From the IMG/VR virus record IMGVR_UViG_3300035183_000234, positions 1-23,913 of that record: a stretch of DNA of 23,913 bases. One strand, written 5' to 3'. Positions 8,774 to 19,679 of this stretch are shown piece by piece (the first letter of the stretch is position 1; every line of letters starts with the position of its first letter). The notes beneath the pieces are model-generated. The model searched no databases, was not told where the DNA came from, and worked only from the letters and a program-made list of their open reading frames with translations. The position numbers and the translations under genes were made by a program. This stretch comes from a virus.

Positions 8774-11749
8774 CTACCCCCGCTTCACGTTCTGCAGCAT
8801 GCCGCCGGGGCGCATTTCGTCGGCCAGCTTCTGCTCGATCGCCCCACGCACCATCGCAGCCAGGCGGCGCGCCATCGCGGCGTCGCCTTCACCATTGCCC
8901 ACGCCGTCCATGCTCACGCTCACGTTCAGGTTGCCGATCAGCGGGCCGCCCACGCCGCGGCGCAGGTTGTTGCGGTGGCGCGGGTCGTCGGCGGTCAGCA
9001 CCTCCTCGCCCCGCTGCAGGATGGCCGGCACCTCGTTGGCCATCAGCCCGGCCAGGCCGCCGCTGTGCAGCACCTGCGCGCCCTGGAACACCCAGGGCGC
9101 CACCCGGCGCGCGTTGGTCAGCGCGCCATCGATCACGCCGCCGGTGTGCTTGGTGGTGACCAACAGTCCACCCAGCCAGCGGGCCACGGCGCTGAGCCAG
9201 CTGCCACTGCTGCCGCCAGAGCTTCCAGCCTGTTCCAGCGCCTTCAGCGCGTCGTTCACCAGCTTCTCGGCCAGGCGGCGGCTGATCAGGTCCAGCATCG
9301 TGCGGGCAAAGCCGGCGGCGAAGTCCTTCACGGCGTCCCCGGCCTTCTTGGCACCGGTCACGAAGTCGGTGAAAGCATTGGCCAGGCCGCTGGTGGCCGA
9401 GCTCTGCAGCGTGCGCTGAAGCTCGGTGGTGCGGTCGCCCAGCCGCTTGATTTCCTGCTCCAGCTGCTGCAACGCGGCGCGCTCGGCGTCGGTGCGGGCC
9501 AGCGCCTTCTGCAGCTCCAGCAGCCGCAGCAGCTGCGGCAACGCCTGCTCGCGGGCCGCAAAGACGCGGCGCTCGCCTTCCTCGCTGGTGATGACGCGGC
9601 GCTCCACCGCGTCGGCAATGGCCTGCTCGGCCAGCTTCAGCCGCTCCAGCTGGGTGGCCGATTGCTCGCGCAGCGACTGCAGGGTGGCATCGCGCGTCGC
9701 CTCGTTGACGGCCTTGGACGCCTCGGCCTGCAGCTCGGCCAGCAACCGCTCGAGCTCGGCACGCTGCCTCGGGTCGATGGCCAGGCTGATCTGCACCCGC
9801 AGGTCGCGCGAGGTGTCGTCGATGCTGCGTTGCAGGTCCTGCACGCGCACGCGGGCCACGGCTTCGGCGCGGCGCAGCGCGTCGGGTTCGTCTTGGGCAG
9901 CGGCAGCGGCGTTGTCGCGCGCCAGGTCGCGCACGCGCTCCGCAGCACGCAGCCACACCTCGGCCCAGGCCTGCGCCCGATCACGCGACTTTTCCAGGTC
10001 GTCAGCCTCGACGATGTTGCGCGCCTCGGCCACCACACCGGCCAGGCGCGAACGCGCGGCGATCAGCTGCGCCTCGGCCTCGATGGCGCGCGCCTCGGCG
10101 GCGCGGCGGTCCTCGGGCTTGGCCTCCAGGCCCACAGCGCCGCGCGCAGCCTGCGCCTGCTGCTGCTGCAGCTCGACCTGCGCGCGCAGGCGCTGCTGCT
10201 CGATGCGGTTGAGCGCCAGCGCCTTCTCGCGCGCGCTGATCAGGCCCTGCGCGTCGGCCAGCTCCACGGCCTGCTGCTGCTTGTCAAGCGCCGCCAGCTG
10301 CCCCTGCAGGCGCTTTTGCGCCTCGGCCAGCACCACCGCCGTGATGGACTGCTGTACCTCCTTGGACTGCTGGCGGATGTCCTCCTGGTTCTGGCGCGCC
10401 TGGGCTGCGCTTTCGGCGGCGCGCTGCTGGTCGCGCAGCAGCGTCTGCAGTTCGGCCTGCAGGTCGTCCACCTCCTTCTTGTCGGCCGACTTGCGCCGCC
10501 CTGCAAAAAGCGGTTGCGCCTGGCGCGCCGCGATCTCGGCCAGCTTCGTCTGGATCTCGGCGATGCGCTGCTCGGGCGTCTTGTCGCGCCCCAGCTCGCG
10601 CAGCTGGTCGATGAAGCCGCTCACCCCGCGCGTGACAGCGCTCCAGGCGCGCTCCAGCGTGCCTAGCGCCGGCGCGGTGCGCTGCACCAGGCTGTCGGCC
10701 AGCTGGTTGTTGACGAAGCGCACCGCCTCCTGCTGGCGGCCTTCGCTTTCCAGCCGGCGCACGTAGGCCACCTGCGCCGCGGTCAGGAAGTTGTAGGCGC
10801 GGTTGGCCTTCACGGCCCAGTCGGTGATGCCCTCGGCCTGGTCTTCGAAGGACTTGATGACCTCCTCGGCCGACTGCCCCGTCAGCTTGGCCAGCGCCGC
10901 GGCGGCGCGGCCGGTGGCGCCCAGCGTTACCTGCGTCTGCCCGCTCAGCGTCAGCAGCCTGGTGACCAGCTCGCGCGCGAAGCCGATGCTCGTCTGGGTC
11001 TCGGTGGCGATGCTGCGCGCCAGGCCGGCCACCTGGCCCTGGCTGGTGCCGATGGCGTTACCGGTCAGCGCCAGCGTGCGGCGCAGCTGCTCGCTCTGAC
11101 GGTAGCCTTCATGCAGCTGCGTCGCCCACAGCGCAAAGCCCGCGCCGATGCTGCCCACGATCACCCGCATGGGCGTGATGGTGTTCAGCAGCGCGCGCGC
11201 GGCGTTGCCGAAGCCGCCAAAGATGTCGCGCAGCTGGCCGCCCTGCTGAAGGGCCACCAGCGTCGGGTTCTGGCCACTGCCCAGGTCGGTGACGATGTCC
11301 GTCACCTGCGGGGCCAGCTGGGTGAGCTTGCGCTGCTCCTCAAGTTCGGCCCGCCGCTTGGCCGCGGTGGCGCGCAGCTCCTCGCGGTCGGCGTCTGCCT
11401 GCGCCTTGCGCCGTGCCCTGCGCTCCTGCTCTTCCTGCTCGCGGCGCTCCCGGGCGGCCTGGCGCTCGGCCTCGCGCTCGGCGCGCAGTGCGGCCTTGCG
11501 CTGTGCCAGCGCCTCGGCGTCGGCCTGGCGCTGCTGCTGGTTGCGGTTGCGGTTGGCCTGGGCCTGCTGGGCGGCGGCCGCGGCGGCGTCGCTGCCGGCG
11601 TCCTGCCTTGCCTGCCCGCCGCTGCCGCGCGTGGCGCGGGCCACCTCGGCGCTGGTGGCCTTGGACTCCTCGCGCAGCTGGCGCAGACCGGCCAGCCCGC
11701 CGGACACATCGGCCGCGATGCGGAGGATGGCCTCGATGGTCTTGGCCAT
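8774..11749 (-). CDS. H: Tail length tape measure protein H (991 aa)
   Basis: The long helical protein sets tail length and is ejected with the DNA. Residues about 55-145 are an intensely charged Ala/Gln/Arg/Glu coiled coil. Residues about 150-400 match the tape measure core domain (LAPQVTDIVTDLGSGQNPTL, then GYRQSEQLRRTLALTGNAIG). More coiled coils fill 420-790. The C-terminus carries the lambda-type segment GGVIDGALTNARRVAPWVFQ, LHSGGLAGLMANEVPAILQR and GEEVLTADDPRH. At 991 aa it is longer than lambda gpH (853 aa). At roughly 1.5 angstrom per residue this suggests a tail near 150 nm (inference). The ATG at 11749 shares one base with the TGA of the frameshifted T reading frame. The position directly after G/T is the canonical order. 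Confidence 0.96.
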   Translation of the reverse strand: MAKTIEAILRIAADVSGGLAGLRQLREESKATSAEVARATRGSGGQARQDAGSDAAAAAAQQAQANRNRNQQQRQADAEALAQRKAALRAEREAERQAARERREQEEQERRARRKAQADADREELRATAAKRRAELEEQRKLTQLAPQVTDIVTDLGSGQNPTLVALQQGGQLRDIFGGFGNAARALLNTITPMRVIVGSIGAGFALWATQLHEGYRQSEQLRRTLALTGNAIGTSQGQVAGLARSIATETQTSIGFARELVTRLLTLSGQTQVTLGATGRAAAALAKLTGQSAEEVIKSFEDQAEGITDWAVKANRAYNFLTAAQVAYVRRLESEGRQQEAVRFVNNQLADSLVQRTAPALGTLERAWSAVTRGVSGFIDQLRELGRDKTPEQRIAEIQTKLAEIAARQAQPLFAGRRKSADKKEVDDLQAELQTLLRDQQRAAESAAQARQNQEDIRQQSKEVQQSITAVVLAEAQKRLQGQLAALDKQQQAVELADAQGLISAREKALALNRIEQQRLRAQVELQQQQAQAARGAVGLEAKPEDRRAAEARAIEAEAQLIAARSRLAGVVAEARNIVEADDLEKSRDRAQAWAEVWLRAAERVRDLARDNAAAAAQDEPDALRRAEAVARVRVQDLQRSIDDTSRDLRVQISLAIDPRQRAELERLLAELQAEASKAVNEATRDATLQSLREQSATQLERLKLAEQAIADAVERRVITSEEGERRVFAAREQALPQLLRLLELQKALARTDAERAALQQLEQEIKRLGDRTTELQRTLQSSATSGLANAFTDFVTGAKKAGDAVKDFAAGFARTMLDLISRRLAEKLVNDALKALEQAGSSGGSSGSWLSAVARWLGGLLVTTKHTGGVIDGALTNARRVAPWVFQGAQVLHSGGLAGLMANEVPAILQRGEEVLTADDPRHRNNLRRGVGGPLIGNLNVSVSMDGVGNGEGDAAMARRLAAMVRGAIEQKLADEMRPGGMLQNVKRG

Positions 11750-12398
11750 CAGGCTTCCTCGGCCCTGCGGTGCAGATCCTGCAGCAGCTTCCTGGCGCTG
11801 TCGCCGCCGGCGAAGGCCTGGTTGACCACCACCAGGTCAGCTGCGCGGCGCTCGGCCTCGCGGGCGTTGGCCAGGCGCAGGTACTGCGTGAACTGCGCCC
11901 AGGTGTAGCCCATGATGTCGCCGTGCCGGTGCCCGGCCGCGATCAGCCGATCGAAGGCGCGGGCCCAGGCGTCGCGGGCGCTCGGTCCTTCAGCTGCTGC
12001 AGCACGCGACCCGCGGCGGCGAACGCGGGGGTCGCGCGGAAGAAAAAATCGGCGTTCACCTGCACCACCACGGCGAACAGGAAGGTGAATCGGTCCGGCG
12101 GCATGGCGGACACCTCGGCCAGGTCGAGCTCGGTGGCAATGGCCACCATCTCGATCAGCTTGGACGGGTGGCGCGACAGCAACTCGAACAGTTCGGCCAC
12201 CTCGGGCACACCCGGCCCGCCTTCGGCGCGCAAGGCGTCCAGCAGCTGCGGCGGCAGGGTCATGAGCGTGTTGACCACGGGTGCGGCCACCGTCAGCAGC
12301 CGGGCGATCTGGCCCACGCTGGCCGGCTTGACGACCAGCGTGCGGTCGCCCAACAGCAGGGTCACCTCCAGCGGGGCGGCGAAGTCGGGCGCCTGCAT
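11749..12398 (-). CDS. Tail assembly chaperone G-T fusion by -1 frameshift (216 aa)
   Basis: In lambda-type tails a small fraction of ribosomes slip -1 near the end of G to make G-T, which recruits tape measure and tube subunits. Here the -1 frame relative to G is open from the slippery site to a TGA at 11751-11749 that overlaps the tape measure start. Slipping at 12048-12042 yields 119 residues of G plus 97 T residues. The T part includes SARDAWARAFDRLIAAGHRH, then GYTWAQFTQYLRLANAREAE and ends in KLLQDLHRRAEEA, a helical and convincing sequence. No good independent start exists except an unsupported ATG at 11913. Without frameshifting, 11752-11942 would have no gene. Lambda G-T is larger (about 279 aa). 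Confidence 0.8.
11943..12398 (-). CDS. G: Tail assembly protein G (lambda gpG-like, 151 aa)
   Basis: This protein is the zero-frame product of the G/G-T chaperone pair. It lies between the tail tube gene and the tape measure gene, the fixed lambda position. It begins MQAPDFAAPLEVTLLLGDRT, a short beta region, followed by a mainly helical domain (GQIARLLTVAAPVVNTLMTL, VAELFELLSRHPSKLIEMVA). The last ~30 residues after FFF118-120 become Ala/Pro/Gly-rich. The size is close to lambda gpG (140 aa), but sequence identity is probably low, so the call rests on position, helical character and the downstream -1 frame. ATG at 12398 follows the tail tube stop by about 10 bases. It acts in the cytoplasm during assembly and is not expected in the mature virion. 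Confidence 0.85.
   Translation of the reverse strand: MQAPDFAAPLEVTLLLGDRTLVVKPASVGQIARLLTVAAPVVNTLMTLPPQLLDALRAEGGPGVPEVAELFELLSRHPSKLIEMVAIATELDLAEVSAMPPDRFTFLFAVVVQVNADFFFRATPAFAAAGRVLQQLKDRAPATPGPAPSIG
12042..12048 (-). promoter_or_regulatory. Predicted -1 ribosomal frameshift slippery heptamer
   Basis: The minus strand reads GAT TTT TTC in the G frame (codons 117-119), so the heptamer T TTT TTC is exactly in the X XXY YYZ phase required for -1 slippage. The -1 frame is the open T frame. A run of six T is conspicuous in such GC-rich DNA. Related T-run heptamers are, as I recall, used in phage P2-type tail chaperone genes. The site lies about 100 nt before the G stop, somewhat upstream of lambda's, so a second site nearer the stop cannot be excluded. 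Confidence 0.7.
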
Positions 12399-12408
12399 GG
12401 CCGGCGCC

Positions 12409-13167
12409 TCAGCCCTGCGCCTGGGTGATGCTGTAGAACTGGCCGCCAGCGCTGCTGGCCGAGCGCGTCAGGTCCGCCAGCGTCGCACCCACGAGCTCGA
12501 AGTTGGCGAAGTCGTCGGAGATGAAGTCGACCTGCCGCGCCGGGCTGAGGCGGCTGCGGAACACGTCCACGATCACACGGCTGTTGTCGTCGGTGTTGAT
12601 GCCGTCCAGGCGCACGTAGACCTCGGGCGCCAGCAGCTTGAAGCCGCCGATCACCGTCACCGCGCCCGGGGTGTAGTTCACCTTGAACGGCTGCACGTAG
12701 GGCCCGCCGGTGGTGATGTCATCCAGCGTGATGGTGCCCGCGAAGGCGTCCAGCGTGTACTGGCCGCTGGGCAGCGTCTTGGGCGAGCCGGAGGAGTCGA
12801 CCACCGTCACCGCGCTCACGTTCTTGTGCGGCAGCAGGATGCTGTCGCCGGCCATGAAGCCGGTGGGCGCCACCCAGCCGGTGACGGGCGAGCCGGCGGC
12901 CACGTCGGTGCTGGCGCCCAGCAACGACCAGGCGGCGCCCTCCTTGGTCCACTCGTCGAAGGTGATGCTCAGCTCGCCGCCCCGGCCGCGCGTCATGCGA
13001 CGGTTGGGCAGGCGGTTGCCGGTGTAGCTTTCCTTGCGCTCGACCGTGTCCTCGTTCTGGCTCAGCCGGAACACGCTGCAGTTGCCCAGCCAGCGCATGG
13101 GGCCGGGCAGGCCCGTCGACAGGCGCGAGCCGATGAGTACCTTGCCTTGACCAGAAAAACCGGGCAT
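12409..13167 (-). CDS. V: Major tail tube protein (lambda gpV-type, 252 aa)
   Basis: This is the main subunit that polymerises into the non-contractile tail tube. It begins MPGFSGQGKVLIGSRLSTGL, with NCSVFRLSQNEDTVERKESY (about 29-48) and LPNRRMTRGRGGELSITFDE following, a pattern of tail tube proteins that form a beta sandwich. The rest is beta-rich, with GTITLDDITTGGPYVQPFKV and YVRLDGINTDDNSRVIVDVF. It starts at ATG 13167 with a perfect AGGAGG five bases upstream, one of the strongest ribosome sites in the window, fitting a highly expressed structural protein. Its size matches lambda gpV (246 aa). Neighbours are the U-like gene upstream and G downstream. Confidence 0.88.
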   Translation of the reverse strand: MPGFSGQGKVLIGSRLSTGLPGPMRWLGNCSVFRLSQNEDTVERKESYTGNRLPNRRMTRGRGGELSITFDEWTKEGAAWSLLGASTDVAAGSPVTGWVAPTGFMAGDSILLPHKNVSAVTVVDSSGSPKTLPSGQYTLDAFAGTITLDDITTGGPYVQPFKVNYTPGAVTVIGGFKLLAPEVYVRLDGINTDDNSRVIVDVFRSRLSPARQVDFISDDFANFELVGATLADLTRSASSAGGQFYSITQAQG

Positions 13168-13172
13168 GTCTG

Positions 13173-13178
13173 CCTCCT
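13173..13178 (-). promoter_or_regulatory. Strong Shine-Dalgarno for the tail tube gene
   Basis: A perfect AGGAGG on the minus strand ends five bases before the ATG at 13167. Most other genes here rely on stop/start overlap, so this site fixes the start of the tail tube gene and suggests high expression. Confidence 0.8.
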
Positions 13179-13187
13179 ACAGGTGTC

Positions 13188-13637
13188 TCACAAAGTGAGG
13201 GTGATCTCGAAGCCCAGCGGGTAGACCGCCTTGCTCTCGGTGAAAGTCGGTTGCAGCGGTGCACTGGCACGCCGCAGCGGCCGGGCGGCGCCCGGCGGTG
13301 TCCAGCCGGCCAGGGCCTTGTGCACCTGGCTCAGCACCGGGCCGGCGGCCACGTTGCGGGCGTCGCCCGCCTTGGCCACGTTGTTCAGGCCCAGCATCAC
13401 CAGCCAGCGCTGGTGCAGCAGCTGGCTGGCGCCGCCGCTGGCGCGACTGGCCTCGCCATCGGCCACGCGGTCACCGGCCCACAGCACCAGCAGCACGCGC
13501 TGGCGCTTGTCGGCTTCCAGCACCTGCTTGGTCGTCTCGCACACATCCACCGGGATGTCGGGCACCTGGTCGAGCAGCCGCTGGGCGATCAGCGGCGCCA
13601 GAAACAGGTAGTCGGCGGCGAGTGCGGGCAGGCCCAT
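13188..13637 (-). CDS. Tail terminator/completion protein (lambda gpU-like, 149 aa)
   Basis: This 149-aa protein sits immediately upstream of the tail tube gene, where tail terminator (U-type) proteins lie. It has an N-terminal helix (LPALAADYLFLAPLIAQRLL), a strand and helix (IPVDVCETTKQVLEADKRQ), a hydrophobic strand (VLLVLWAGDRV) and a later RWLVMLGLNN, then a C-terminal strand pair (FTESKAVYPLGFEITLTL). This alternation fits the small alpha/beta fold of terminators that cap the tube and join it to the head. Identity with lambda gpU is not obvious; it may be closer to the phage Gp37/DUF1834-like group. The call is mainly positional plus fold-like pattern. Confidence 0.65.
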   Translation of the reverse strand: MGLPALAADYLFLAPLIAQRLLDQVPDIPVDVCETTKQVLEADKRQRVLLVLWAGDRVADGEASRASGGASQLLHQRWLVMLGLNNVAKAGDARNVAAGPVLSQVHKALAGWTPPGAARPLRRASAPLQPTFTESKAVYPLGFEITLTL

Positions 13638-13691
13638 GTGCGAGCGGTTTCTTCGGGCGTGGGCGGGACCGGCTCGGCGATCAGGCCGCGA

Positions 13692-13991
13692 TCACTCGGC
13701 GTCGGGCACCAGGGCGTCGACCACGCCCACCTGGGCAACCAGGGCCGCAAGCGCGGCGTCGACCTCGGGGGTGGTCTGCCCGGCGGCGGCCAGCGCGTCG
13801 GTCAGTTCGCCGATCTTGTTCAGCAGCGTGCGCGTCTCGCCGCCGATCTTCGTGACCTGGCCGGTCAGGGCGTTGAGGGTGGCGGCGAGTTCGTTTTGAG
13901 TGGCCATGATGTCTTGCATCCTCCTGAGCAGTTGGGCGGCATCGCCCTGGTGGTTGATCGTGACGATGTTGATCGTGGTGGGGCCTGTCAC
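13692..13991 (-). CDS. Small coiled-coil-like protein at the head-tail junction (99 aa)
   Basis: I do not recognise this protein. It starts at GTG 13991, overlapping the stop of the DUF1320 gene as GTGA; an internal ATG (residue 26) is less likely. After a short beta-like N-terminus (TTINIVTINHQG), residues about 18-98 are a long helix with regularly spaced hydrophobic residues (LLRRMQDIMATQNELAATLN, LLNKIGELTDALAAAG), compatible with an oligomeric coiled coil. It lies exactly where the Mu-type head genes end and the lambda-type tail genes begin. It may be a junction component, a linker gene, or a fibre/whisker-like protein. Function unknown. Confidence 0.7.
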   Translation of the reverse strand: MTGPTTINIVTINHQGDAAQLLRRMQDIMATQNELAATLNALTGQVTKIGGETRTLLNKIGELTDALAAAGQTTPEVDAALAALVAQVGVVDALVPDAE

Positions 13992-14419
13992 GCGCGGCCT
14001 CCGTAGGCCTCGCGGCCCATCACCTTGTCGCCGGCGCTGAACAACACCGACCCGGCGCCGGCGGGTGCGGCAGCCTGGTCGGGCGCGGTCAGCACGACGT
14101 CGCCCTTGGCCACCGCCATCAGGTACTGGCGCGCGGTCTTGTAGTCCTCGCGCTCCACCTCGCCGGCGGCACTGCCCAGCAGGCGGTAGTGCGCGATCGT
14201 CACCGCGTGCACTCGCAGCACGGCCGGCACCGGCGCGGCCAGCGGCAGCGCGTAGCGGCCCGCCAGGTAGCCATCGATCTCAGCTTCGGCGTCGTCCAGC
14301 GCCTTCTGCGCCACGGCCTGGTCGACCAGGCCCAGCGGCGGGTCCGCCAGGTCGGTCAACTGCACCAGCCGGGCTTCGCCCAGGCGGTCCTGCAGATCGG
14401 TGACGGTGGCGTATGGCAT
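13988..14419 (-). CDS. DUF1320 head-tail adaptor (Mu gp36 family)
   Basis: This 143-aa protein matches the DUF1320 family: an N-terminal MPYATVTDLQDRLGEARLVQ, a helix with ALDDAEAEIDGYLAGRYALP at about 40-60, and a further helix (VPAVLRVHAVTIAHYRLLG). The family includes Mu gp36 and proteins similar to head-completion or connector factors. The middle part (DYKTARQYLMAVAKGDV) and a disordered Ala/Gly tail complete it. It starts at ATG 14419 and its stop overlaps the next gene. It is the last recognisable Mu-type head gene before the tail module. Confidence 0.85.
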   Translation of the reverse strand: MPYATVTDLQDRLGEARLVQLTDLADPPLGLVDQAVAQKALDDAEAEIDGYLAGRYALPLAAPVPAVLRVHAVTIAHYRLLGSAAGEVEREDYKTARQYLMAVAKGDVVLTAPDQAAAPAGAGSVLFSAGDKVMGREAYGGRA

Positions 14420-14480
14420 AGGCGGGTGCTTGCTGCAGCGGGGCGTGCCCCTGGCGGCGCCTGGTCCCTGCGAGGGCGTA

Positions 14481-14696
14481 TCAGGGTGCGTTGAGGTCTT
14501 CGATGAGCTCGACCTGCAGCAGCTCGTGGCCCCTCAGGTCCTGCAGCTCGCGCTCGCTGAAATCGGCCGCAGGCACGCGGTTCTCGCCGGCCCAGAAGCG
14601 GCCGGCGCAGCTCACGCGCTCGGCGGTCTTGGTGGTCACGCGCAGGCCCGGCACGGGGCCGGCTGCGGGCTTGTCGGTGGTGGCGGTCCTGGCCAT
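14481..14696 (-). CDS. HI1506/Mu gp35-like small protein (71 aa), copy 2
   Basis: This 71-aa protein begins with a short Ala/Thr/Lys/Pro-rich leader, then GLRVTTKTAERVSCAGRFW and VPAADFSERELQDLRGHELL, ending in QVELIEDLNAP. The block 'GLxVT ... FW ... V ... Leu-Arg' is shared with the gene just upstream and with HI1506-type proteins of Mu-like prophages. It sits between the major capsid and gp36, where gp35 lies in Mu. Its function is unknown; a small structural role is inferred. The ATG at 14696 lies five bases after the upstream stop. Confidence 0.7.
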   Translation of the reverse strand: MARTATTDKPAAGPVPGLRVTTKTAERVSCAGRFWAGENRVPAADFSERELQDLRGHELLQVELIEDLNAP

Positions 14697-14700
14697 GTCG

Positions 14701-14934
14701 TCAGCCCTTCGGCGCCTCGATGGCGACCTCTTCCACCACCAGCTGGCCGCCGTCGCCCTCGGCGCGGATCGCGTCCGCCTGCTCGGGCGTCAGTTCGGCC
14801 AGCGGCAGCACGCGCGGTTCGCGCGTGAACTGCAGCCCGCCGCGCCAGAACGACTCCGGGCGCGACGTGACCTTCAGGCCGGTGCCGGCGGGGCCGGCCG
14901 CCGGGGCGGTGGTGCTTGACTTGCGGGACGGCAT
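14701..14934 (-). CDS. HI1506/Mu gp35-like small protein (77 aa), copy 1
   Basis: This 77-aa protein has a low-complexity N-terminus (Ser/Thr/Ala/Pro/Lys-rich), then GTGLKVTSRPESFWRGGLQF and VLPLAELTPEQADAIRAEGD, ending LVVEEVAIEAPKG. It aligns by eye with the next gene, suggesting an old tandem duplication. The FWRGG/F-W pattern and the 'Leu-x-x-Glu-Gln-x-x-x-Leu/Ile-Arg' helix resemble HI1506-related proteins of Mu-like phages. ATG 14934 lies about 40 bp after the major capsid stop, with no overlap. Function unknown. Confidence 0.7.
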   Translation of the reverse strand: MPSRKSSTTAPAAGPAGTGLKVTSRPESFWRGGLQFTREPRVLPLAELTPEQADAIRAEGDGGQLVVEEVAIEAPKG

Positions 14935-14972
14935 GCGTCGGCTCCTTGTCGGGTTGGCTCAGCTCAGACCGC

Positions 14973-15866
14973 TCAGGCCAGCCAGGGCGCCACCACCAGC
15001 TTGGCGGTGCCCACCATCACGTTGTCGGCGCCGTTGGTGGTACGCGCGGCGGTCAGTACCTCGGCACCGGCCTTTTCCAGGCTGGGCGGCACCACCAGGT
15101 GCGTGCCGCGAATGGCCAGCACCTTGCCACCGTCACCCTTCATGCTCCCAAGGGCGGCACGCGCGGCGGCGTAATTGGTGGCGTCCAGCGTCTGCTTGCT
15201 GGCGTAGGCCAGGTGCGGCAGGCCATAGCCCACGTTGCAGCGCGCGTCCACGCCGTACAGGAACTCGCTGCGGGCGAAGACGTTGTCGTCGTCCAGCTTG
15301 TCCTTGGCGGTCAGCGCGTAATCGCGGCGCTTCTGGTAGATCAGTGGCTTGATCGGGCGACTCAGGTCCAGCAGGTACCAGGCCGGGCCGCTGCCGCCGC
15401 CGAAGTTGCTGAAGGTGCCCATCGACCCATCGGCCAGCTTGATGGGGTGGTCGGTGTCGAAGAAAAACTGGCCGTCGAAGCAGGTGGTGTCGAAGCCGGC
15501 GGCCAGCAGGCCGAAGACCAGCTCGTCGGGATGCGTCTTGGCCTCTTGCCCGAGCATCTGGATCATCGGCGTGTAGATGCCGATGCGGTCGTCCTCGATG
15601 TGCTCGCGCTTGACGCCGACGGTCAGCTCGAAGGTCTTGTTCTTGATGGTGTAGTCACCGCTGGACAGCGACTGCACCACGCGGTCACCCAGCCATTCGC
15701 GGAAGCGGGGCATGGTGCCGAGCCAGGCGTAGTGCTCTTCCGAGCCCGTGCTCGGGATGACCGAGGCCAGCATGTCGTACATGCTGGGGGCCTGGCGCCA
15801 GGCGTCCTGGTAGATCGCCTGGAAGCCGCGGAACATGTCCGCGAGATTGGCGCGATTGATCAGCAT
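14973..15866 (-). CDS. Major capsid protein (Mu gpT family, 297 aa)
   Basis: This protein forms the icosahedral shell. It begins MLINRANLADMFRGFQAIYQ, continues with YAWLGTMPRFREWLGDRVVQ and NKTFELTVGVKREHIEDDRI, all hallmark blocks of Mu-like major head subunit gpT, and contains GQFFFDTDHPI mid-protein and SKQTLDATNYAAARAALG late. The length is close to Mu gpT (about 305 aa). A GGAG lies seven bases upstream of ATG 15866. Neighbours are a decoration-like protein upstream and gp35-like genes downstream, as expected. There is no sign of truncation. Confidence 0.95.
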   Translation of the reverse strand: MLINRANLADMFRGFQAIYQDAWRQAPSMYDMLASVIPSTGSEEHYAWLGTMPRFREWLGDRVVQSLSSGDYTIKNKTFELTVGVKREHIEDDRIGIYTPMIQMLGQEAKTHPDELVFGLLAAGFDTTCFDGQFFFDTDHPIKLADGSMGTFSNFGGGSGPAWYLLDLSRPIKPLIYQKRRDYALTAKDKLDDDNVFARSEFLYGVDARCNVGYGLPHLAYASKQTLDATNYAAARAALGSMKGDGGKVLAIRGTHLVVPPSLEKAGAEVLTAARTTNGADNVMVGTAKLVVAPWLA

Positions 15867-15900
15867 CGGTGTTCTCCGTGCAGGTGGTTGCGGGTGGCGG

Positions 15901-16308
15901 TCAGATCTCGACCCAGACGCCCGAGGCGTCCACGTCGCGCACGATGCCGGCGGCGCTGCGCGTGCCGCTGCCGTTGGTCTTGGCCACCGTCTGGTCGTCG
16001 ACGATGAAGCAGGTGCTGCCGATGTCGGCCAGCGCGATCTGGTCGCCCGCCGACGAGTTGGCGAAGAGGAACACGCCGCGCTCGACCTCGACGCGCATGG
16101 CGCCGGCGCCGCCGGCGCTGTTGTCGGCCTGCTCGATGGCCACGCCAGCGGCCTTGAGCGTGGTCGAGACGGCGCCCTTGACGGCGAGGCTCGCGCTGTT
16201 CACGCAGACGAGGCTGCCGGCGAACAGCTTGGTGGCGGCGGCCACCGGCAGCGACAGGCGTTTGCCGTCGCGGCGAGGGGTGGCACGGTCGGCGGTAAGT
16301 GCAGCCAT
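15901..16308 (-). CDS. Capsid decoration-like protein (135 aa)
   Basis: This 135-aa, beta-rich protein lies between the protease/scaffold gene and the major capsid gene. It begins MAALTADRATPRRDGKRLSL, then KLFAGSLVCVNSASLAV, VAIEQADNSAGGAGAMRVEV and a final AAGIVRDVDASGVWVEI. This 'parental value, then time-dependent/volume-like beta repeats' arrangement resembles DUF2190-type capsid cement proteins found beside capsid genes. The family match is by general pattern, not a diagnostic motif. It has AGGAGC seven bases before ATG 16308. Likely role: outer-surface stabilisation of the head. Confidence 0.7.
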   Translation of the reverse strand: MAALTADRATPRRDGKRLSLPVAAATKLFAGSLVCVNSASLAVKGAVSTTLKAAGVAIEQADNSAGGAGAMRVEVERGVFLFANSSAGDQIALADIGSTCFIVDDQTVAKTNGSGTRSAAGIVRDVDASGVWVEI

Positions 16309-16351
16309 GTGGGGTGCTCCTGGTGGGTGTGGTGATGCGCTGCGCGCTGGC

Positions 16352-16918
16352 TCAGGCGACTTCGGCCTGCAGCTGCTTCAGGTAGGCGTCGTGCGACAGG
16401 CCCAGCTGGTCGGCGATGAGCTTCTGCGTGGCGCTGAGCGCCGTCACCGCCTGGCCGGCGGCGCCGCCCTCGGCGCCTGCCTTGGCGGCAGCGGCCTGGC
16501 CCGCCAGCCCCGGGATCACCGGCGCGGCGGCCAGGATCGCGGTCAGCATGTCCTTGTCCTTCTTGCCCAGCTCGACGTACTGGTCGCGCTGCGCGGCGGT
16601 CAGCTTGCCGGCGGTGATGGCACCGTCCACAGCCTTCGCAACTTCGTCAGCTTGCAGCCTTGCGGTCAGCTGCGTGACCTGGGCCTGCAGCGTGGCCACC
16701 AGCTGCACGGTCTCGGTGCCCGGGGTTTTCAGCGCCGCCACGGCCGACAGCGCAGCCGCCTCGTCGGCGCCTGCCTGCAGGCCCAGCGCCGCGGACAGCG
16801 CCTCGGGCAGCGCGGCCTTGGGAGGCACGTAGGACTTGAGGGCCGCCACGGCGGCTGCCTCGTCGGCGAGCGCGGGCACTTTGAGGAAGGTGGCCAGTTC
16901 GGCAAGCAGCAGCTTCAT
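16352..16918 (-). CDS. Nested scaffold protein (Mu gpZ-like, 188 aa), internal start
   Basis: Within the protease gene, an in-frame ATG at 16918 (residue 172) is preceded by GGAG with six-base spacing, a good Shine-Dalgarno. Starting here gives MKLLLAELATFLKVPALADE and the complete Ala-rich helical C-terminal region. In Mu the scaffold Z is made from an internal start inside the protease gene I; the same arrangement is inferred here. The upstream segment (about 150-171) looks like a linker. Confidence 0.65.
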   Translation of the reverse strand: MKLLLAELATFLKVPALADEAAAVAALKSYVPPKAALPEALSAALGLQAGADEAAALSAVAALKTPGTETVQLVATLQAQVTQLTARLQADEVAKAVDGAITAGKLTAAQRDQYVELGKKDKDMLTAILAAAPVIPGLAGQAAAAKAGAEGGAAGQAVTALSATQKLIADQLGLSHDAYLKQLQAEVA

Positions 16919-17431
16919 GTCGGGCTCCGATGGGTCGTCGTTGAAGAGGGGGTGGGCGGTCATTGCCTGCACGGCATCCATGCCCAGCAGCGCGGGGTAG
17001 TTGGTCAGCGCGGCCATGTGCACGGCATTCACGTCGCCGGAGGCCTTGTCGAATTCGATGACTGGGCTGATGTAGCGGTACTCGCCGGCTGCGATCGCTG
17101 CGCGCGCGCGCTCGGTCCATTCCACGTCGGCCATCAGGCCCTTGCCCGACAACCAGACCACGCTGCGGATCCAGCCGGCGGCCGGCGCTGGCTGCCCGTT
17201 CTTGTTGGCCTGCAGCGTCTGGTGCTCGTAGTCGATGACGATCGGCGTGGCCGCGATGGTCGCGTTCATGGCCGCGGCCAGGCTCCGGCCCTTTTCGTCG
17301 CTCACGCGCCAGGTCTTGCCGGGCCCGGGGCGGCCGTCGCGGGCCGCGAACTCACCCGCCGGGAGCAGTTGCACCTGTCCAGTTGCGGCCAGCGGCAGCG
17401 TGGTGGTCAGCAGGGCAAGCTTCAAGCGCAT
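16352..17431 (-). CDS. Head maturation protease (Mu gpI family, 359 aa)
   Basis: The N-terminal half matches Mu-type gpI: VQLLPAGEFAARDGRPGPGK (about 20-39), PIVIDYEHQTLQANKNGQPA (63-82), AAGWIRSVVWLSGKGLMADV (84-103), and EYRYISPVIEFDKASGDV (117-134). It probably cleaves scaffold and capsid during procapsid maturation; the catalytic residues are not certain to me. The C-terminal half (from about 172) is Ala/Leu-rich, helical and scaffold-like. The start at ATG 17431 is chosen because family members start 15-20 residues before the LLPAGEF block. An 85-bp gap separates it from the gpG-type gene. This gap contains CTGAAG-AA-CTTCAG (17470-17483), a small inverted repeat of unknown role. Confidence 0.92.
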   Translation of the reverse strand: MRLKLALLTTTLPLAATGQVQLLPAGEFAARDGRPGPGKTWRVSDEKGRSLAAAMNATIAATPIVIDYEHQTLQANKNGQPAPAAGWIRSVVWLSGKGLMADVEWTERARAAIAAGEYRYISPVIEFDKASGDVNAVHMAALTNYPALLGMDAVQAMTAHPLFNDDPSEPDMKLLLAELATFLKVPALADEAAAVAALKSYVPPKAALPEALSAALGLQAGADEAAALSAVAALKTPGTETVQLVATLQAQVTQLTARLQADEVAKAVDGAITAGKLTAAQRDQYVELGKKDKDMLTAILAAAPVIPGLAGQAAAAKAGAEGGAAGQAVTALSATQKLIADQLGLSHDAYLKQLQAEVA

Positions 17432-17516
17432 GGGTCGCCACTTTGGGCGCCACGCGCGAGCCGCGGAAGCTGAAGAACTTCAGGAGCCAGGCCGTGGTCG
17501 GCAGGCCCGACCGGGG

Positions 17517-18038
17517 TCAGTCGAAGGCGCCCTCGATGGCGTCCTGCACCACCTGCAGGATGTCGGCCCGGTCCTCGGCGCCCAGCTCGCCGCGCTCGGG
17601 GTCGGCCGTCAGGATGCCGCGGCGCGGCATGGTGCGGGTGCCCCATTCGTGCAGCACGCCCACCTCCCAGTACGGCTGACTCTTGCCCGGCACGCGGCGG
17701 CTGGTGCCGATGTCGACCCACTGCGGCCCTACGTTGTATGCAAGGCTGTTGCGAAGCTGGCGCGTGCGCTCCAGCAGCGAGCCCGGTATGCCGCCCTTGA
17801 ACGCGGGGTTGCGCTCGATGAACCAGTCGCTCTCGTAGATGGCCTTGGTGGCCGGCGACAGCGGTGGCCAGGCGGTGCCCGCCGGGTCGGTCTTGGTGTC
17901 GAAACGCAGCTGCGCGTTGCGCTGCACGGTGGCGCCGATCTCTTCGAGCAGCCCTCGCGGCCTGGCCAGCAGCGCAACGGCGCTGTCGATCGCCCGCAGC
18001 AGCGCAGTGTCGTCCAGGGTGATGCGCATGCCGTCCAT
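17517..18038 (-). CDS. Virion morphogenesis protein (Mu gpG family, 173 aa)
   Basis: This 173-aa protein matches the phage virion morphogenesis family: FDTKTDPAGTAWPPLSPATK (46-65), then LLERTRQLRNSLAYNV (88-103), VGVLHEWGTRTMPRRGIL (127-143). In Mu this is gpG, needed for head assembly and possibly part of the tail-completion pathway. It begins ATG 18038 (MDGMRITLDD), seven bases after the DUF1353 stop. It follows gpF as in Mu apart from the inserted DUF1353 gene. There is no sign of damage. Confidence 0.9.
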   Translation of the reverse strand: MDGMRITLDDTALLRAIDSAVALLARPRGLLEEIGATVQRNAQLRFDTKTDPAGTAWPPLSPATKAIYESDWFIERNPAFKGGIPGSLLERTRQLRNSLAYNVGPQWVDIGTSRRVPGKSQPYWEVGVLHEWGTRTMPRRGILTADPERGELGAEDRADILQVVQDAIEGAFD

Positions 18039-18045
18039 GCCGTGC

Positions 18046-18432
18046 TCAGCCCCCTGTCAGCATGCCCCAGGCGCGCACGCCGGCATACATCAGCCAGCGC
18101 TGCAGGCTGGGCACGCCCAGCACCTGCATCGCTTCCAGGAAGATGCGGTCGGCCCGCGCGCGCGGCACCGCCGCCACGTCCAGCAGCCAGTCGTGCAATA
18201 CGGCGGCCTGCGCATAGCGGCCCGCTGGGTGCCCCAGTGGCGTCCACAGCAGCCGCGGGATGCTGGCCAGGTCGGTCAAGAAGCCCGCGGGCACGGTGTA
18301 GACGGTGGCACAGCGCACGGGCAGCGGCTGTTCGTCGCTGCCGCTGCAGTCGGTCCAGAAGCTCATGTCGCGCAGAGTGCGCCAGCGGTCGCCCACCTGC
18401 ACCAGCTCCAGCGGCTCGGTGAAGCTGCTCAT
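18046..18432 (-). CDS. DUF1353 protein between gpF and gpG genes (128 aa)
   Basis: The start at ATG 18432 is set by a perfect AGGAGG seven bases upstream; a longer in-frame start at 18594 is rejected because it adds Arg/Ala-rich residues that overlap gpF. The 128-aa product contains FLTDLASIPRLLW (51-63) and AAVLHDWL (76-83), the signature of DUF1353. The family is widespread in phages but its function is not established. In Mu the F and G genes are adjacent, so this is an inserted gene. It is not obviously structural and could be an accessory factor. Confidence 0.85.
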   Translation of the reverse strand: MSSFTEPLELVQVGDRWRTLRDMSFWTDCSGSDEQPLPVRCATVYTVPAGFLTDLASIPRLLWTPLGHPAGRYAQAAVLHDWLLDVAAVPRARADRIFLEAMQVLGVPSLQRWLMYAGVRAWGMLTGG

Positions 18433-18439
18433 GAAGATG

Positions 18440-18445
18440 CCTCCT
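18440..18445 (-). promoter_or_regulatory. Strong Shine-Dalgarno for the DUF1353 gene
   Basis: AGGAGG on the minus strand lies seven bases before ATG 18432. It partly overlaps the TAG stop of the gpF gene (18446-18444), so termination and reinitiation are coupled. It decides the short DUF1353 start. Confidence 0.8.
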
Positions 18446-19679
18446 ACAAAAGCTTGGCCAGCTCCGGGTAGCGCTGCGCGGCCTCGTCCACGCTCAGCGC
18501 GGCCAGTTGCTGCACGCGCCAAACCAGCATCCCGCGCTCGAGCTCCAGCACGTGCACGCGCCGATCGGCGCCACCGCCGCGCGCCCACCACCACAGCACC
18601 AGCCCGTTGCCCAGGTCCAGCCGCTGGCCGCGGTCGAGGATGGCCTGGGCCATTGCCCAGTCTGCGGCCTGCGTGGGCAGGCCAGGCGGGTAGTCGGCAT
18701 GCTCGGCCTGGCGCAGCAGATCGACGGCGCTCACGCTGGCCACCACCGGCTCGCTACCCACGCCCGGCACGGCTGCCACCGGCATGCCCACTCCCGGCAA
18801 TGGCGGCGGTGCGGCCAGGAAGTCCCTGAAGGCCTGCTCGCTGCGACCGCGCGCCACCACCGCACGGATCACGCGCAGCGCATCGGCGCCGCCAGCCGCC
18901 GCCGATGGGCGCAGGGCCGAGGCCTCGCGCACCAGGAGGTCGAGCCCCTGCTCGACATGCACCTGCCCGGGGTTGTAGGCAAAGCCTGGGTCGATGCCGC
19001 GCGGCACGCGCTCGGTCTGCCCGGTGGATCTGTTCACGAACTCCACCCACGTGGTGGGCGGCGGCTCGGTCTTGACCGTGGCGCCCGCGGCCTGCAGCCG
19101 GTCGATGCCCGCCTGGTTGATGCCGAAGGCGATGCAGCGGCAGCGCCAGCCGTTGGGGGGGAAGTGCGTGTGCCACCAGGGGTGGTCCTTGGGCAGGATC
19201 ACGTCGTCCCAGGGCTTGTGGCTGGCGCGCACGCGCTCGTCGCGCATGGTGCGGTACACGATGTGCGTGTCACTTCGGCTGCGCTGGATGCGCGCCCAGC
19301 GCCCGGCGGCGTTGCTCTGCCGCAGGTTGACGTCGAAGATGAGCGACAGGCGCCGGTCGTCGAAGCGGGTCTTGCGCACCTCGCCGGTGGCCGGGTCGGT
19401 CACCTCCACATTGCCCCAGAAGCCGCCCGCCACCAGCTGGCGGCGCATCGTGTCGCGGAACTCGCCGAAGGTGCTGCCGTTCGTCACGGCAGCGTCGAGC
19501 TGGTCGCGGATCAGCCGCAGGATCTCCATGCGCATGACCCCGGCCACGGCGAATGCCCGCGCATGCTCGGCCTGCCACACGTCCTGCCAGCGAAAACTGG
19601 GGCGCAGCAGGCCGCGGCGCTGGAAGGCTGCGATCGCATCTTCGGGGCGGATGGCGCCCAGGGTGACGGCGGCGGGCAT
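18444..19679 (-). CDS. Head morphogenesis/minor head protein (Mu gpF family, 411 aa)
   Basis: Residues about 40-215 match the Mu gpF/SPP1 gp7-type minor head protein domain, with the conserved segment HKPWDDVILPKDHPWW (154-169) followed by HTHFPPNGWRCRC (170-182). The N-terminus (IRPEDAIAAFQRRGLLRPSF) is also typical. gpF binds portal or capsid during head assembly and may be injected with DNA. Beyond residue 250 is an extra region; about 318-400 may be a separate domain (VDLLRQAEHADYPPGL, WAMAQAILDRGQRL, LVLWWWARGGG). The ATG at 19679 is five bases after the portal stop. The stop lies inside the DUF1353 ribosome site. Confidence 0.9.
   Translation of the reverse strand: MPAAVTLGAIRPEDAIAAFQRRGLLRPSFRWQDVWQAEHARAFAVAGVMRMEILRLIRDQLDAAVTNGSTFGEFRDTMRRQLVAGGFWGNVEVTDPATGEVRKTRFDDRRLSLIFDVNLRQSNAAGRWARIQRSRSDTHIVYRTMRDERVRASHKPWDDVILPKDHPWWHTHFPPNGWRCRCIAFGINQAGIDRLQAAGATVKTEPPPTTWVEFVNRSTGQTERVPRGIDPGFAYNPGQVHVEQGLDLLVREASALRPSAAAGGADALRVIRAVVARGRSEQAFRDFLAAPPPLPGVGMPVAAVPGVGSEPVVASVSAVDLLRQAEHADYPPGLPTQAADWAMAQAILDRGQRLDLGNGLVLWWWARGGGADRRVHVLELERGMLVWRVQQLAALSVDEAAQRYPELAKLL

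Follow-up and report, generated by a model that had tools for sequence, protein, structure and literature searches.

The slippery sequence of phage lambda is G GGA AAG, which differs from the T TTT TTC heptamer of the locus described here. The likeness between the two lies in their arrangement: in lambda, too, the pair stands directly upstream of the tape measure gene and a -1 shift near the end of gene G appends a T domain, G outnumbers G-T, and the G part binds the tape measure protein while T binds the major tail protein (PMC5009743). In the D3112-like phages (Casadabanvirus), GenBank lists gpG/gpGT for MP29 and a 'slippery sequence for -1' for MP22, and both T TTT TTC and a -1 shift have been reported for PaMx73 (PMC4378225). 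The dnaX gene of Escherichia coli shifts at A AAA AAG with about 50% efficiency to yield a shorter product (PMC5009743), its heptamer being flanked by an upstream Shine-Dalgarno-like sequence and a downstream hairpin (PMC3711429).

We describe a tail gene region on the minus strand of the window (the whole 23,913-nucleotide stretch of viral DNA that was analyzed) that very probably encodes a lambda-type tail assembly chaperone pair, G and G-T, through a -1 shift at T TTT TTC; slippage in this phage is inferred from conservation of the site. We favor this reading because the site is conserved, the T frame is coding, T has no conserved start codon, G matches a chaperone family, and MP22, MP29 and PaMx73 already carry such an assignment. 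Gene order, T TTT TTC at the aligned Phe-Phe, a -1 shift and a homologous G (PHROG 1442) are as in these three phages, whereas the window is distant from them in sequence and has 99 nt from the heptamer to the end of the G stop, compared to 129-135 nt in their group. The feature is thus a sequence-distant member of an already known class of tail-chaperone frameshifts.

Organization of the tail gene region

The genes for the major tail protein, G and the tape measure protein follow one another in that order (Table 1). The stop codon of G lies at 11945-11943, and its codons at 12050-12042 read GAT TTT TTC (D117 F118 F119), placing T TTT TTC in exact X XXY YYZ phase. Beyond the heptamer the -1 frame is open for 97 codons, for a G-T fusion of 216 aa, and its TGA (11751-11749) shares one base with the tape measure ATG (11749-11747). 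If T is not called, 193 nt (11942-11750) are left unannotated ahead of the tape measure gene, as in the record of phage VW-6B, with its 201-nt gap at the corresponding place. A first-pass annotation of this DNA had proposed the G/G-T pair with this phase, this open frame, fusion and overlap, a site about 100 nt before the G stop and a gap of about 190 bp, and recomputation returned the same picture. It had also called T unannotated, which holds for this contig, but the same feature is well known from relatives, and short T fragments already stand in PHROGs 13355, 8022 and 10839 as 'unknown function'.

Table 1. Features of the tail gene region and the evidence for each.
Feature	Position	Strand	Evidence
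Major tail protein	12409..13167	-	PHROG 807, E=4.1e-55
Gene G, tail assembly chaperone, 0-frame product, 151 aa	11943..12398	-	PHROG 1442, E=1.3e-18; position between major tail protein and tape measure
Shine-Dalgarno-like AGGTGA, possible 5' stimulator	12056..12061	-	7 nt upstream of heptamer; possible mechanism by analogy with dnaX
Slippery heptamer T TTT TTC, in phase with G	12042..12048	-	Kept in 27/29 HMM-found G homologues
T extension, -1 frame, 97 codons plus TGA	11749..12042	-	PHROG 14432, E=1.2e-7; conserved in relatives
Variable Arg-rich linker of T, T residues 1-21	11980..12042	-	Low pLDDT; without sequence conservation; overlaps C-terminal part of G
G+C-rich hairpin, possible 3' stimulator (weak evidence)	12005..12036	-	5 nt downstream of heptamer
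Helical T domain, T residues 22-96, from conserved Trp region	11755..11979	-	Four helices; conserved W, LI.AGH, YT..Q
Tape measure protein	8774..11749	-	PF06791 (TMP_2), E=4.3e-42; PHROG 24, E=1.5e-76

G belongs with the tail assembly chaperones of PHROG 1442 and also matches Pfam DUF6631 at 24.8 bits, below the cut-off of 27 bits. When its predicted structure was compared with a viral fold library, the best matches were the homologue from Stenotrophomonas phage DLP_5, tail proteins and proteins annotated as tail chaperones, together with the 'pre-tape measure frameshift protein G' of Xylella phage Sano, all with modest scores (E 2e-5 to 1e-2). In the PDB the HK97 chaperone 2ob9 was among the matches (Z 4.9, rmsd 7.1, 88 aligned), but unrelated helical proteins scored equally well and the comparison is not decisive. 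When the PDB was searched with a sequence profile of G, no known tail protein came up, the best match being a designed protein (E 3e-4) and the rest having E > 0.1.

Conservation of the slippery heptamer

TTTTTTC occurs once in the window, both strands counted, against 0.09 expected by chance, and 8 of 100 shuffles of the window contain one. Its mere presence is only mildly unusual; it is conservation in relatives that sets the heptamer beyond chance. The window DNA (blastn) and G (tblastn) had no match among 50,697 phage records, and relatives were reached via T, the major tail protein and HMMs. A first set of loci was partly found through the peptide VNADFF, with all codons allowed. Because that route might bias toward the site, G homologues were searched for a second time with the PHROG 1442 protein HMM, which is blind to codons, in 399 genomes of the order to which the Thiobacillus genome of locus L012 belongs. 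This search found 29 G loci in 19 of the genomes, and T TTT TTC or T TTT TTT stands at the same aligned Phe-Phe point in 27 of them. Those 27 loci make up 24 distinct sites, and adding the other loci brings the number of distinct heptamer-bearing sites to 42, in relatives that are not phylogenetically independent. Close relatives with either heptamer at the aligned residues are L003/L014, L005/L013, L011 and L015-L019; more distant carriers are L012, L020-L024, the Pseudomonas phages MP22 and MP29, VW-6B and DLP_5. The first-pass annotation had looked to an alignment of G-T regions as a check, and across relatives both the T-run heptamer and the helical domain of T are kept.

The two homologues without the heptamer are L046 and L052. 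L046 has G and T joined in a single open reading frame (L046:1489-2085, 198 aa) that has no slippery heptamer, and its sequence reads as a hard-wired G-T fusion. This frame is flanked by a tail-protein-like ORF and the following gene. L052 has GAG TTC TTC in place of the heptamer and no recognizable T in its -1 frame; it shares a genome with L040 and is an apparent second G copy beside a complete G/T pair. Phage B3 has C CCT TTC (L007:3130-3136) at the point where other relatives have the T-run. In the B3 record the G-T fusion is unannotated, and the end of the T stretch is listed as a separate hypothetical protein (B3ORF45).

Elsewhere in the relatives' genes, TTT makes up 18% of Phe codons and GAT 32% of Asp codons; in the rest of the window the values are 13% and 11%, respectively. 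Multiplied over the 42 distinct sites, such codon frequencies give a vanishing probability, of which no exact value is meaningful as the loci are related. Across 6143 codon steps of these genes there are only 8 further in-phase X XXY YYZ heptamers. At locus L043 a stop in the -1 frame abuts the heptamer and the G stop comes 96 nt further on, so the shift there must take place at or after the heptamer and before the G stop.

Possible stimulators of frameshifting

Upstream Shine-Dalgarno sequences are known stimulators of frameshifting (PMC4066793, PMC3711429). Ahead of the heptamer, AGGTGA is able to pair with the 16S rRNA 3' end; over 42 relatives the pairing energy peaks sharply at that position. 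Across 41 loci the mean anti-16S pairing energy upstream of the heptamer is -9.35 kcal/mol, compared to -7.32 kcal/mol with random synonymous codons, and 0 of 200 synonymous randomizations (protein fixed) paired as strongly as observed, a statistic that ignores relatedness. Codon choice thus appears to favor a Shine-Dalgarno-like element upstream of the heptamer. Lineages without a strong element of this kind are L012, L021-L024, DLP_5 and L040.

Downstream, the 45 nt starting 4 nt past the heptamer have on average the highest folding stability in the neighborhood, with a small excess over shuffles (mean z -0.52, SE 0.18, 42 loci). In the window itself hairpin stability gives z values of -1.1 to +0.9 against shuffles. 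Two-sided changes were seen for 4 of 12 hairpin pairs in seven relatives, a count reached by 22 of 500 shuffles, which is suggestive only of a paired structure. A role for the hairpin as a strong stimulator was rejected, the signal being weak compared with shuffles in G+C-rich DNA; the window is 70.6% G+C.

A Shine-Dalgarno-like element before the heptamer and a candidate hairpin after it recall E. coli dnaX, with the differences that the shift here would give the longer product and that stimulation is proposed by analogy. We tentatively suggest, as a real possibility that falls somewhat short of probable, that an internal Shine-Dalgarno-like sequence, lying 7-8 nt before the T-run, stimulates the tail-chaperone shift in this phage family, either alone or together with a downstream hairpin. 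If so, the ratio of G to G-T would be set in the fashion of dnaX and not by a bare slippery run.

A T6-T8 homopolymer could also act at the level of transcription, if RNA polymerase inserted one U too many there and ordinary translation of that mRNA entered the T frame. Slippage of bacterial polymerase on T-runs exists (PMC5009743), but the window has six T's where the described bacterial cases have runs of about nine, and C CCT TTC in B3 is a ribosomal-type heptamer that lacks a long run. The upstream Shine-Dalgarno-like element likewise fits slippage by the ribosome, and we regard transcriptional slippage as very unlikely.

The T frame

Downstream of the G stop codon, comparison of related T frames (44 pairs) gives 466, 466 and 1021 mismatches at T codon positions 1, 2 and 3, respectively, and this third-position excess indicates that T is coding. 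Inside the G/T overlap the corresponding counts are flat (397, 315 and 375), which is what some constraint on both frames would produce. PHROG 14432 matches the T frame over residues 23-78, and an independent HMM search for T with this family recovered 16 of the G-bearing genomes, with matches overlapping G. The T proteins of relatives share the tryptophan and the two motifs given in Table 1. The predicted structure of T is disordered over residues 1-21 (mean pLDDT 49-54) and then forms four helices, with pLDDT of 90-96 over residues 21-70; the model had no significant match in the viral fold library.

Conservation of T sets in only about 25 residues past the heptamer, which would suit a shift at another site nearer the G stop, where T begins to look protein-like. 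The first-pass annotation had raised an additional or alternative site of this kind, having found the Arg-rich residues after the heptamer less protein-like. This part of its proposal did not hold up, as G in the window has no other in-phase slippery heptamer and no second slippery site common to relatives was found across the aligned G genes, the conserved element being the heptamer itself. The Arg-rich stretch is best read, with the structure prediction, as a predicted disordered linker, variable in all relatives, whose sequence is dictated by G, and as such it is no sign of a wrong shift site. Given a variable, disordered linker and no second conserved site, we take the T-run as the shift site and consider one nearer the G stop extremely improbable.

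The T domain is matched by four PHROG families that carry the label 'unknown function'. Of these, 13355, 8022 and 10839 are short (42-58 aa) and are apparently truncated T calls from internal starts, whereas 14432 (191 aa) resembles G and T combined, although its G part matches weakly (E 0.15). The matches suggest that the first three are fragments of tail-chaperone T domains and that PHROG 14432 contains one. That T is instead an independent gene with a start codon of its own, its translation coupled to the G stop, is scarcely credible: there is a T-frame ATG at 11913-11911 and the short PHROG families match T fragments of such a kind, but this ATG, the first in the window's T frame, is T residue 44 inside the folded domain and a start there would lose the conserved Trp and the first helix, while no ATG, GTG or TTG precedes the conserved T core in the window, in L011, L013-L016, L018, L019 and L021-L024, or in most other relatives. 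Some relatives have scattered candidate T starts, which are not common to them. A conserved start of its own for T would have told against the shift that the first-pass annotation proposed, and none was found in the window and most relatives.

Proposed expression of G and G-T

With a -1 shift at T TTT TTC, the majority of ribosomes would translate G and terminate at 11943, and a minority would move one base back on U UUU UUC. In such a two-tRNA mechanism, the Phe-tRNAs in the P and A sites would re-pair from UUU UUC to UUU UUU. Slipped ribosomes would then read the T frame to give G-T, in which a flexible linker is predicted to carry the folded helical T domain. If lambda is a guide, the G part may coat the tape measure protein and the T part recruit the major tail protein, and both G and G-T would leave before the tail is completed. 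One point counts against frameshifting at this heptamer: A_AAA_AAG is far stronger in E. coli than U_UUU_UUU and U_UUU_UUA (PMC5009743), so that heptamers stronger than U UUU UUY exist in that bacterium.

The underlying biology is textbook, and the Shine-Dalgarno-like element may bear on how the family sets its G to G-T ratio. For this phage the annotation is corrected: the apparent gap ahead of the tape measure gene is occupied by T, which is a genuine coding region. More broadly, 8774-19679 of the window combines Mu-like head genes (F-like, protease I, gpT capsid and gp36) with tail genes of the D3112-like/B3-like siphophage kind. The 149-aa protein encoded at 13188-13637 matches PHROG 209, which is named 'portal', and Pfam PF23840 (E 5.4e-21), a tail terminator; the product is probably a tail terminator, which fits its position, and the PHROG name is probably wrong.
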